NCBI GenBank assembly: GCA_030447805.1
Contig: JAUJOE010000003.1
Span: forward strand, 280,727-344,726
DNA from: Nocardioidaceae bacterium
GTDB lineage: Bacteria; Actinomycetota; Actinomycetes; Propionibacteriales; Nocardioidaceae
Direction: 5' to 3'
Length of the DNA stretch: 64,000 bases
Position 1 is the stretch's first letter. Each line of letters opens with the position of its first letter. Position numbers and translations under genes: made by a program. The notes beneath the pieces were generated by a model. That model was given only the letters and a program-made list of their open reading frames with translations, did no database searches and was not told where the DNA came from. Positions 802 through 48,640 of the stretch are shown piece after piece.

Positions 802-1551
802 GTGCCTACCGCCCTGATCACCGGACCCACCGCCGGAATCGGCTATGCCTTTGCCGCCGCCTTAGCCGCCGAAGGGTTCGACCTCGCCTTGGTCTCCCGT
901 GACAAGGCCCGTTTGGAGCAAGTCGCCGAAGAGCTCGCCAGCCGCCACCACGTCACCTGCACAGTGCTGCCAGCGGATCTCGCGGACGCTGATGCGACTC
1001 TCGCCGTAGAGGAGCGGTTGCGCGACCAGCCGGTCGACGTACTGGTCAACAATGCCGGTTTCGGGCTGTGGCGACCGTTCGAGCACAACGACATCGAGGC
1101 CGAGCAACGGGGCCTTGACGTGCTGGTGCGAGCAGTGTTGCGGCTCACCCATGCCGCTCTCCCGGCAATGCTGCGGCGCGGCAGCGGCGACATCGTCAAC
1201 GTGTCGAGCGTGGCGGGGTTCTTGCCGCGCGGCACGTACGGCGCGCACAAGGCGTGGGTGACGAGCTTCAGCACCTGGGCTCACCTGCACTACCAGCCTG
1301 CCGGGGTGCGCGTGCTGGCGCTGTGCCCCGGCTTCGTCCGCACCGAGTTCCACTCCCGGATGGGCGCAGGCGTGGACGGCATCCCCGGATGGATGTGGCT
1401 GAACGCTGACGCGGTCGTCGCCGAAGCGCTGAGCGACCTGCGCGCCGGTAAGGCGGTCAGCGTGCCGAGCGCCCGCTACAAGGCGCTGGTTACTGCGACC
1501 CGGTTGGCTCCCCGAGGAGTCGTGGAGAAGCTCGCCAGGCGGGGCCGGTGA
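802..1551 (+). CDS. SDR-family NAD(P)-dependent oxidoreductase
   Basis: TALITGPTAGIGYAFAAALA (TGxxxGIG), NNAG, SxxxYGAHKAW; GTG start chosen at 802. Confidence 0.85.
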   Translation: MPTALITGPTAGIGYAFAAALAAEGFDLALVSRDKARLEQVAEELASRHHVTCTVLPADLADADATLAVEERLRDQPVDVLVNNAGFGLWRPFEHNDIEAEQRGLDVLVRAVLRLTHAALPAMLRRGSGDIVNVSSVAGFLPRGTYGAHKAWVTSFSTWAHLHYQPAGVRVLALCPGFVRTEFHSRMGAGVDGIPGWMWLNADAVVAEALSDLRAGKAVSVPSARYKALVTATRLAPRGVVEKLARRGR

Positions 1552-45367: not shown

Positions 45368-45772
45368 TCAACCGAGCGAGTGCAGGGTGTCGAGGAGCCG
45401 TCGGACCCTGCCGTCGATGTCACCAACGATGCGGCGTACGTCGTCAAGGTCTTGACCGGCTGGGTCATCCACTGGCCAGTCCTCATAGCGTTTGCCAGGA
45501 AGGAACGGGCACGTCTCGCCACATCCCATCGTGATCACCACATCCGCCGCCTGCACGACGTCGGTGTGAAGGTGGGTCGGCACCTCGGCGTCGGTGGAAA
45601 GTCCCCGTTCAGCGAGCACCTCGCTGACGACTGGGTTGACGGCGGCTTTGGGCTCCGACCCAGCTGAGCGCGCCTCAACGGTGCCAGCGGCATGGTGCTC
45701 GAGCAACAACCGGGCCGCGACAGATCGGCCGGAGTTGTGGATGCAGGCGAACAGCACAACGGGTCTGGTCAC
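45368..45772 (-). CDS. arsC: arsenate reductase (low-molecular-weight phosphatase fold)
   Basis: VVLFACIHNSGRSVAARLLLEHHA; ITMGCGETCPFLPGKRYEDWPVDDPAGQ. Confidence 0.92.
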   Translation of the reverse strand: MTRPVVLFACIHNSGRSVAARLLLEHHAAGTVEARSAGSEPKAAVNPVVSEVLAERGLSTDAEVPTHLHTDVVQAADVVITMGCGETCPFLPGKRYEDWPVDDPAGQDLDDVRRIVGDIDGRVRRLLDTLHSLG

Positions 45773-45826
45773 GTGGGTCCTTCGTTACGACGAGCAATGG
45801 CCGATCGGGCCAGGGAAACGGCGTGG

Positions 45827-45877
45827 GTGCTGCCCCGAACCTGAACCCGCCCGGGGCAGCACGCCGGGGCGGTTCAG
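45827..45877 (-). promoter_or_regulatory. Two mutually exclusive hairpins between the Cys-rich leader ORF and arsC (candidate attenuator)
   Basis: gtgctgccccg/cggggcagcac (11-bp perfect) versus ctgaacccgcccgg/ccggggcggttcag (one bulge), sharing 45841-45862. Confidence 0.6.
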
Positions 45878-45924
45878 CAACAACCTTCGCAGCAGCAGTC
45901 ACTGCAGTCATCACAGCAGTCCAT
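45874..45924 (-). CDS. 16-aa Cys-rich leader peptide / microprotein MDCCDDCSDCCCEGCC
   Basis: ATG GAC TGC TGT GAT GAC TGC AGT GAC TGC TGC TGC GAA GGT TGT TGC TGA preceded by GGAAGGAGG, 6 nt spacing; too short for the supplied ORF track. Confidence 0.75.
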   Translation of the reverse strand: MDCCDDCSDCCCEGCC

Positions 45925-46003
45925 GGCACACCTCCTTCCATGCGGTCCGTCGAAGCTGCCAGGCAGCGGCGCGCTTCGACATACGTCTAATAGTGCTAGT
46001 TCT

Positions 46004-46038: not shown

Positions 46039-46398
46039 ATGCCAAAGGCTCTGCCTGTGCTCACCGACACGTCACCGATCTGCTGCGAGCGGCTGAACAC
46101 CGAACGGATGATGTCAACATCCGACGCGTTGGCGCTGGCTCACAGACTCAGGGCGCTCAGCGACCCGGCTCGCATCCAACTTGTGTCGCTGCTGCTGACT
46201 GAACCGAGGCAGGAATCCTGCACCTGCCTGCTCGCCCCAGCAGTTGGCCTGTCCGAGCCAACGGTCAGCCACCACCTCAAACAACTGTTGGACGCCGGCA
46301 TCGTGACGAAGGAGCGGCGCGGTATCAACGTCTACTACCGACTCGTGCCTGAGTCAGTGAAGGCCGTCGCTCGCGTCCTCGACCTCGACTGCTGCTGA
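46039..46398 (+). CDS. arsR: ArsR/SmtB-family metalloregulator
   Basis: HRLRALSDPARIQLVSLLL...ESCTCLLAPAVGLSEPTVSHHLKQLLDAGIVTKERRGINVYYRL. Confidence 0.93.
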   Translation: MPKALPVLTDTSPICCERLNTERMMSTSDALALAHRLRALSDPARIQLVSLLLTEPRQESCTCLLAPAVGLSEPTVSHHLKQLLDAGIVTKERRGINVYYRLVPESVKAVARVLDLDCC

Positions 46399-46428: not shown

Positions 46429-47889
46429 TTAGCGTCGGCACTCGCCAAATGCGTCGACCGCCCACCCACCGTTGGGCCACCGGTTCAGCGTGAAAATGAC
46501 ACTTGGGGTTCCGTCCGACTCGAGGATGAGCGCATACGCCTCGTTGGCCGTCTTATCGGTGAGTACGTACCGCTGCCCGTCGCGTGAGTCGACCCATGAC
46601 CGGGCAGCCGTTCGTAGAGAAGTCCCTGGGGCCGGGCCAGACTGGCCAAGAATGACAGCGAGGTCATCACGCGTGCATGGGAGTCGTCGTGTAGCCCCCG
46701 GCGACGGAGGGGTGACTGGCGCCGGCGGCTTTAGCACCGCGCTGTAGGGGTGCGAGGCTGCGTACGCCAGCACGAGCGTCAATGAGATGGGCTGTCCGGT
46801 GTCGATGTCCGCAGGCAAAGTTACGATGCTGCGGTTAGGCCCGAGATCGGCGGTGCAGATGCGCCCGCCCTGTTGCGACAGGTGCACCGTGACCTGATTG
46901 TTTCCTGCCGAGTCGATGGAGTCGGGCCGATCCGGGCATGAGGAACTGCCGTAGACAGAGATTTCCAGTCGGCGCTCCGACAACAGCCTTGCGCTGGGCG
47001 AAAACTGACTGGGCGAGGACAACAGCTCGACCTCGGAGCCTCCGGGTACGACGCTGCCCTGCGGCACGTCTGAGCCGGTCACGTCTGAACACATCTCGAC
47101 CCACGGACCGCCGTCGGACTGCCGGCACACCACCTCGTCGGGTGCGCGGAGCCCGGCTTGCTCGAGGGTCTCCCTTGCTTTGCCTTCGGGCCGCCCGGCA
47201 ACGTCGGGGACCGCGGTGTAGCCGTCGGGAATGAGCTGCACCGACGCCAGCAAGTCCCGCACCAGCGACTCGTCGCGCGACTGCGCCCAGATGGCCACGT
47301 CCTTGCCGGCGACAACTACGGCACCAGCGGGTCCACCCGCGCACGCGAGCTTGATCTCAGCGCTACAGGAAACTGGTCGAACAGGCGCCACGCCCACCCG
47401 CATACCGTCGACCTCTTTGAAGTGGTCGACTTGGGCCTTCCAGTACTCCCCCGGCAACGAGGATGCCCTGGCCAGATGCACTGACGATGAGTCGGGTGGA
47501 GGGGAAATGGGGCAGGAGCGGTATGTGCCTTTGTCGAAGACCACGGTGTCCTTCACCGCCACGTCGCAACGGGTCTGGTTGGTCCCCCAGTCCTCGGGGA
47601 CGGCCACGGCGACACCGTTCATCCCCACGAGCCGCATACCGGGCGGCGCTAGCCGCTCTTCGGTCGCTGGCTCTGTTGATGGCTTCTGCGGGTCGCCGCC
47701 GCGCGGTATTAGGGCAATGCCCAAGGCGACAATCACAGCAACGGCAGTGGATACCGACAGCACCTGAACCAGGCGACGCGTGCGGGCCGACCGGCGGCTG
47801 GCTGCCAACAGCGAGTCAGCGTCGATCGGCTCCGCCGCGATGTCTTGCCCCGCGGTTTCCAGCAGTTCGCGGATTTGTGTCTCGTTCAT
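46429..47889 (-). CDS. single-TM protein with PASTA-like ectodomain, sigma-linked
   Basis: TM LVQVLSVSTAVAVIVALGIALI; VPDVAGRPEGKARETLEQAGLRAPDEVVCRQSDG (PASTA-like); overlaps sigma gene by 4 nt. Confidence 0.75.
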   Translation of the reverse strand: MNETQIRELLETAGQDIAAEPIDADSLLAASRRSARTRRLVQVLSVSTAVAVIVALGIALIPRGGDPQKPSTEPATEERLAPPGMRLVGMNGVAVAVPEDWGTNQTRCDVAVKDTVVFDKGTYRSCPISPPPDSSSVHLARASSLPGEYWKAQVDHFKEVDGMRVGVAPVRPVSCSAEIKLACAGGPAGAVVVAGKDVAIWAQSRDESLVRDLLASVQLIPDGYTAVPDVAGRPEGKARETLEQAGLRAPDEVVCRQSDGGPWVEMCSDVTGSDVPQGSVVPGGSEVELLSSPSQFSPSARLLSERRLEISVYGSSSCPDRPDSIDSAGNNQVTVHLSQQGGRICTADLGPNRSIVTLPADIDTGQPISLTLVLAYAASHPYSAVLKPPAPVTPPSPGATRRLPCTRDDLAVILGQSGPAPGTSLRTAARSWVDSRDGQRYVLTDKTANEAYALILESDGTPSVIFTLNRWPNGGWAVDAFGECRR

Positions 47890-48395
47890 GGCGTGCTCCG
47901 GTTACCTGGCAGGTCGGCAAGGTGATCGTCGTTGGACAGTTCAGTCAGGGCGCGGGACAACCGGCTCTTCACGGTGCCGACAGGTATGCCGAGTGCCGTA
48001 GCAGTCTGCCGCTCGGTCAGGTCGGCGAAGTACCTCAGCACCAAGACGGTTCGCTGTTGCTCCGGCAGCCGTTTCAGCGCTGCTCGCACAGCCGCTCCGA
48101 CGGCTACCTGGTCGGCGGCGTCGGCGACGGAGGTCTCCGGCAGGTCGGCAGTCGGCCGCTCCCCCCACCACTTGCGCCGTCGGCTTGTCGACAGCGCGTT
48201 GAGCAACACCCGGTACACGTACGCATCGATGTCTGCGGCCGCAGTCACCCTGTCCCAGTTGGAGTAACAGCGCATCAACGCCGTCTGGACGTGGTCCTCA
48301 GCCTCCGGCAGCGACCAACCCAAGAGCACAGCGCTGCGCACCAGGGTCTGCCCCCTGGCAGCGACGTACGCCGTGAAGTCGCCGTCGGTGTCCAC
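47886..48395 (-). CDS. SigE-family RNA polymerase sigma factor
   Basis: GQTLVRSAVLLGWSLPEAEDHVQTALMRCYSNWDRV; LPEQQRTVLVLRYFADLTERQTATALGIPVGTVKSRLSRAL; start codon approximate. Confidence 0.9.
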   Translation of the reverse strand: MDTDGDFTAYVAARGQTLVRSAVLLGWSLPEAEDHVQTALMRCYSNWDRVTAAADIDAYVYRVLLNALSTSRRRKWWGERPTADLPETSVADAADQVAVGAAVRAALKRLPEQQRTVLVLRYFADLTERQTATALGIPVGTVKSRLSRALTELSNDDHLADLPGNRSTP

Positions 48396-48487
48396 GCAGT
48401 CCTCTCTTGGCCCTACTGATGAGACAACATGGCACCGCTGAGAGGTTCCACGCACCGCATCCACAAGTTTCCTAGGGTGCGCATTGT

Positions 48488-48640
48488 CGAGTAGGTGGCG
48501 GTGCAGCCCCCGGAGGGTGCGGGAAGGACAAGCCACTTGTCGAGTGTGGCCGCGGTGCCTCCGGAGGGTGCCCGGGAAAGACAAGCCGCTTGTCGAGTGT
48601 GTGGCGACGGCACCCCGGAGGGTGCCCGGACAAGCCGCTT
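48488..48640. repeat. Three-copy tandem repeat, about 53-bp unit, with ACAAG-N3-CTTGT palindromes
   Basis: tgtcgagt..gtggc.gcggtgc.tccggagggtgcccgg(gaaag)acaagccgct repeated three times. Confidence 0.85.

Follow-up and report, generated by a model that had tools for sequence, protein, structure and literature searches.

An open reading frame of only 16 codons, half of them for cysteine, lies between an ArsR-type promoter and the arsenate reductase gene arsC, on the arsC strand, and raises the question of whether it makes a peptide with a function of its own, serves as a leader that controls arsC, or is a chance occurrence. We addressed this question in the stretch of 64,000 nucleotides presented above (hereafter the window) and in related loci of other actinobacteria.

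The micro-ORF and its neighbours

The original prediction had placed a cysteine-rich micro-ORF with a Shine-Dalgarno (SD) sequence between an ArsR-type palindrome and arsC, and re-reading of the sequence bore this out for the coordinates, the cysteine count (8 of 16 residues, the rest largely acidic) and the SD. The elements are the following.

45874–45924, minus strand: micro-ORF MDCCDDCSDCCCEGCC, ATG to TGA, 16 codons plus stop; unchanged in the second species of the genus (genome G012, locus L002)
45931–45939, minus strand: Shine-Dalgarno sequence GGAAGGAGG, 6 nt 5' of the micro-ORF ATG; same in G012
45368–45772, minus strand: arsC, arsenate reductase of the LMW-PTPase fold with a GTG start (Pfam LMWPc, E = 4.5e-17)
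46039–46398, plus strand: divergent ArsR repressor (HTH_5, E = 1.1e-13) with Cys15-Cys16 and Cys61/63

Within the 64 kb of the window, the micro-ORF is alone among ORFs of 30 codons or fewer in containing at least five cysteines making up at least 30% of residues, whether or not an SD is required. None of 120 shuffled versions (first-order Markov) yielded an SD-led ORF above these cysteine thresholds, which are our own. The extreme shortness of the ORF and its absence from most ars loci would suit a functionless chance ORF, but the peptide is identical in a second species and related copies occupy the same position in other lineages (see below); this reading, already contradicted by conservation, is extremely improbable. 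Gene finders overlook a micro-ORF of such size. A search with Rfam over the locus gave no matches above threshold.

The closest NCBIfam model for the ArsR is the Rv2640c family, with a score of 143 bits that lies slightly below the 155-bit cut-off. In the Corynebacterium repressor CgArsR, the As(III) site consists of Cys15-Cys16 with Cys55 as the third ligand (PMC11868830). The Cys15-Cys16 pair of the window ArsR carries identical residue numbers and is joined by Cys61/63, and this set resembles a CgArsR-type As(III) site as far as can be judged from sequence. Cys-Cys tails terminate many of the proteins encoded here and in loci L096, L097, L101, L119 and L120, among them ArsR (...DLDCC), CadI-like proteins (...ACC or ...SCC) and an ArsD-like protein (...SSGCC). 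An ACR3 exporter was found in neither of the two genomes of the genus. Each of them, however, encodes one ArsB-superfamily protein outside the ars locus, so efflux is still possible. The ars locus adjoins a gene pair consisting of a PASTA-domain protein (46429–47889, minus strand) immediately 3' of a sigma-70-family, ECF-like factor (47886–48584, minus strand), an arrangement retained in G012.

Two candidate ArsR sites lie between the divergent genes.

45975–45990, minus strand: operator-like sequence TTAGACGTATGTCGAA, which fits TTAGAYN4RTCKAA
46004–46017, no strand assigned: TTGACATATGTCAA, a perfect palindrome that forms the second candidate site for ArsR and overlaps a TTGACA resembling a -35 element; same in G012

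A strict sigma-70 scan of the locus found no promoter. The ATG is located about 50 nt from the operator-like site as read from the sequence (the transcript start is a prediction) and follows a perfect SD, which together indicate a normal leadered start, unlike that of the leaderless poly-cysteine ORFs of mycobacteria. When searched with one base per arm partly free, TTAGAYN4RTCKAA was found 5' of the micro-ORF in the window, in G012 and, among the relatives described below, in both copies of family f40 and in all tested copies of Jiangellaceae except L091; it is also missing from the locus of lineage f10 (L110). The background was one match per 92 kb in 28 other arsC loci. The motif is common to three lineages (the window genus, Jiangellaceae and f40), and we infer that ArsR binds it.

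Conservation within the genus

The comparison with G012 gives the micro-ORF 0 of 51 nt changed, with identical peptide, SD and codons, and only 2 of 70 nt differ in the region 3' of the ORF. Divergence is considerably higher in the surroundings, reaching 10.6% in arsC (19% at third positions), 7.8% in arsR, 12.2% in the promoter stretch and 19% in the final 31 nt before arsC. The two changes in the 133-nt core, set against the local rate of 10.6%, correspond to p ~5e-5 in a simple binomial calculation. Without regard to gene boundaries, equal conservation is reached by some 16% of the segments into which the aligned region was divided for comparison, and the contrast with the immediate neighbours is the one that counts. 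As the genus is represented by two genomes with zero changes in the ORF, selection on the peptide and selection on the RNA are inseparable within it.

Of 150 genomes sampled from the family to which the window belongs, two have the pattern, both in the window's own genus, and BLASTN with the 137-nt element returned matches in this genus only, the remainder being short GC-rich stretches. No convincing cysteine-rich micro-ORF was found near arsC in 28 further loci from this family, indicating that the ORF tracks the type of ArsR and not arsC.

Relatives in other lineages

A pattern combining the SD with MDCC codons matched a second group in the class, and a scan of approximately 85,000 species genomes identified this group as Jiangella and Phytoactinopolyspora. 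The Jiangellaceae peptides are 17–18 residues long and follow MDCCDDxxxDCCDxGCC (MDCCDDQTTDCCDTGCC and variants); M1, D2, C3, C4 and the terminal CC are invariant, and the middle positions are variable. A profile search recovered homologues in 14 of 22 Jiangellaceae genomes, comprising all 12 of Jiangella (genus g64), one of them degenerate, and 2 of 5 of the sister genus g91, which takes in Phytoactinopolyspora. The profile (A1) represents mainly 17-aa copies and misses the 16-aa copy of the window, so that a profile-based absence elsewhere carries little weight. A single contig of J. anatolica carries two copies. In every mapped locus the micro-ORF stands opposite an ArsR that bears a Cys-Cys pair, and arsC-like genes are found near some copies (L068, L071). 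The degenerate Jiangella copy, VDCRDDLSTDCCDTGSC (genome G221, L092, ~1498–1551, plus strand), is seemingly decaying: it contains VDCRDD, has lost the ATG and two cysteines, and its SD is unclear. Further pattern matches (MDCCALP..., MECCPSCP, MDCCEEAGGCR[FV] and MDCCDERTL...) were unlike the family and were dropped, and the DNA pattern of the ORF had no match in viral contigs.

We also scanned 110 loci around the nearest relatives of the ArsR in the class, and found SD-led cysteine-rich ORFs in four of them, all four facing the ArsR; the reversed-sequence control, with thresholds again set by us, gave 1 match per 283 kb. In two genomes of lineage f40, a family, a micro-ORF encoding MTFCCEAEAVEALEVC(DPS/CST)ETSCC faces the ArsR, as does MDDCCDDTCTTEDCGTSCC in one genome of the family f10 (L110). 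The copies of the window, f40 and f10 are too short and too diverged to tell common descent from convergence. Across the lineages, the peptides span 16–24 residues with about 20–50% cysteine. The original prediction had proposed conservation of the cysteine codons or SD in related ars loci as its test; conservation was found beside related ArsRs, and the 28 other Nocardioidaceae arsC loci gave no convincing ORF of this kind.

A second small ORF of 64–72 codons (MDPYLPETIATERRRDLIAEAARRRLVAIATCC...RCCTTA; MDPYLPETIA...ATCC...CC..A) is located between the ArsR promoter and the Jiangellaceae micro-ORF wherever the region was read.

L068, 4302–4496, plus strand: companion ORF, uncharacterised; same position in other Jiangellaceae loci

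The 64-aa Jiangella version belongs to no Pfam or NCBIfam family, and plasmids gave no match. A similar 51-aa ORF (MIDPYLTYNGVRSHIDDLRDEACLSRLAALATCC..., L101, 2297–2452), located after a CadI-like gene, is a possible relative. ORFs of this type may represent another small protein of ars loci.

Product or leader

The surroundings of the related copies bear directly on whether the peptide or the act of its translation is selected. According to gene calls made with our own simple composition or length rule, the next gene lies on the opposite strand in L066, L068, L069, L071 and L073, five of the seven loci mapped in Jiangellaceae, so a leader would have nothing to regulate in these five. Gene calls of this kind also place a convergent gene some 95 nt past the beginning of the micro-ORF in both f40 genomes, where the micro-ORF is the sole gene facing ArsR.

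Codon changes point in the same direction. Of the changes between the two f40 copies, 11 are synonymous and 4 nonsynonymous (pN 0.07 versus pS 0.68). For the 13 Jiangellaceae copies, pN/pS is 0.42 in frame, whereas the two shifted frames give 1.12 and 0.78, a modest result because the middle positions vary while the ends are invariant. The synonymous excess in frame thus applies to the relatives; the window copy has zero changes to count. Retention of the ORF, mostly without a downstream operon gene, combined with mainly synonymous change, argues that the product is selected, and coding under purifying selection appears well supported for the micro-ORF family by these sequence comparisons. The original prediction had offered a leader peptide and a functional product as alternatives, leaning towards the second. 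The stand-alone or terminal position of most relatives and their largely synonymous change favour the product, and a leader-only role is disfavoured; a leader role may exist in the window genus alone.

Hairpins after the stop codon

In the window genus, the gap between the micro-ORF and arsC can fold in two ways.

45815–45868, minus strand: strong hairpin in the micro-ORF/arsC gap, core arms 45852–45862 and 45827–45837, extended, about -35 kcal/mol
45841–45877, minus strand: predicted alternative hairpin, arms 45864–45877 and 45841–45854, about -22 kcal/mol, with the 5' arm over the stop codon

The predicted folds are mutually exclusive, a layout that fits an attenuator. In such a mechanism, low levels of Cys-tRNA, or consumption of thiols by arsenic, would slow the ribosome at the cysteine codons, so that the region around the stop codon stays unoccupied; the weaker hairpin, which includes this region, would then form and block the strong, terminator-like one, and arsC would be read. 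The near identity of the hairpin region in the two species is in keeping with this proposal, and poly-cysteine short ORFs of mycobacteria work in this way, being leaderless and attenuating operon genes, according to the passages that cite Canestrari et al. 2020 (PMC9094748, PMC9031893). The window ORF shares with them its actinobacterial origin, its very small size and its consecutive cysteine codons 5' of an operon gene. It differs, however, in having a strong SD and a 5' leader, in its apparent control by ArsR, and in preceding arsC, which is no cysteine-supply gene, instead of sulfur genes. Most of its relatives moreover are stand-alone or terminal genes, often followed by a convergent gene. 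The U-run of the window hairpin is short at best (UUU, and UU in G012), and a terminator scan did not flag it. Folding of the whole leader RNA showed no extra stability relative to shuffles (z = -0.09), so the case for the hairpin is based on position and conservation and not on total folding energy. Strong hairpins of unrelated sequence also lie 3' of the micro-ORF in most Jiangellaceae loci, and 12 of 14 belong to the top 10% of their locus in strength. This ranking uses our own thresholds, and is somewhat flattering in that the test region was scanned more finely than the background. The simple reading of these hairpins is that of plain terminators, mostly without an operon gene downstream. 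Taken together, we regard a leader peptide or attenuator as unlikely to be the role of the micro-ORF. The window hairpin is most likely a partial terminator or a stabiliser of the RNA end, which would yield more peptide than ArsC.

An added attenuation of arsC in the window genus is nevertheless possible, and would give the micro-ORF a dual role: the peptide would be functional, and its translation would at the same time adjust read-through into arsC. Peptide-level conservation across lineages and the RNA-level conservation that extends beyond the stop codon within the genus would both be accommodated, but the regulatory half is a conjecture from two genomes of this genus, and we consider the combination quite unlikely.

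Proposed function

The micro-ORF is a real, conserved gene that probably makes an ArsR-induced, As(III)-binding microprotein of metallothionein-like character. In the mechanism that we infer, the micro-ORF would open a small transcription unit under ArsR control, with arsC as the next gene. Entry of As(III) into the cell would cause the Cys15-Cys16-type ArsR to leave its operator, upon which the micro-ORF would be transcribed first and translated strongly from its own SD. The acidic, cysteine-dense peptide of 16 residues may then use its vicinal thiols to bind As(III) or comparable thiophilic ions, and buffer As(III) in the manner of a metallothionein or phytochelatin, while ArsC would reduce arsenate. 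The hairpin after the stop codon, acting as proposed above, would keep the peptide in excess over ArsC. The bound metal could also be another soft ion. Rarity outside Jiangellaceae, evident from the 2 of 150 genomes in the window's family, counts against this main reading.

The CCEGCC of the peptide conforms to CCxxCC, the pattern of tetracysteine tags, to which biarsenical dyes bind; the chemistry of these dyes is unlike that of inorganic As(III), and the resemblance is only suggestive as a pointer to As(III) binding. The bacterial metallothioneins SmtA and MymT are proteins of about 50 residues. The micro-ORF peptides are likewise small and cysteine-dense, and their acidic residues, together with glycine beside cysteine, give them a composition like that of a ribosomally made phytochelatin. 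They differ from SmtA and MymT in their length of 16–24 residues and in their vicinal CC pairs, and the likeness is one of composition, with binding predicted.

Vicinal cysteine pairs are also a feature of ArsD, another product of ars operons, which is a folded metallochaperone of about 120 residues that works with ArsA. By analogy, the micro-ORF peptide might be a metallochaperone or a modulator of ArsR, lowering or handing on As(III), or might act on another soft metal, for instance Cd or Hg. A 20-aa peptide of Georgenia, described next, would be compatible with this, but neither the window nor f40 shows a gene for an ArsA-type pump next to the micro-ORF, and the type of ArsR indicates As(III)/Sb(III); we judge such a role to be very unlikely. 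The Georgenia peptide, MDCCEDLACELEECGCDCGC, is encoded by an SD-led cysteine-rich ORF in Georgenia sp. SYP-B2076 (L070, 1664–1726, minus strand), and its SD overlaps the stop codon of a gene for a MerR-type regulator whose metal loop is of the CPC kind, which represents the same idea with another class of metalloregulator.

Discussion

In well-known ars operons, arsenic is pumped, reduced or methylated. Sequestration has been proposed for QueF and QueE of Lysinibacillus, which are regulated by ArsR and bind As(III), presumably to sequester it within the cell; a sequestration gene inside an ars operon was stated as not found before (PMC12093948). The micro-ORF would share with QueF/QueE the control by ArsR and the proposed sequestration of As(III), whereas those are proteins of ordinary size, encoded outside the ars operon. 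We found no description of such ORFs in open-access papers, subscription papers lying largely beyond the scope of the search. We tentatively propose, at somewhat less than an even chance, that the peptides form an undescribed class of ribosomal, phytochelatin-like, As(III)-sequestering microproteins of 16–24 residues that are the direct output of As(III)-sensing ArsR switches in actinobacteria. As part of the same proposal, they would in some species be the sole local output of ArsR, which would place a sequestration gene within ars loci.

If this is true, an ArsR-controlled peptide of 16–24 residues would count among the smallest gene products that bind metal, and be invisible to gene callers. 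It is also suggested that the short poly-cysteine ORFs of actinobacteria are not all regulatory leaders.
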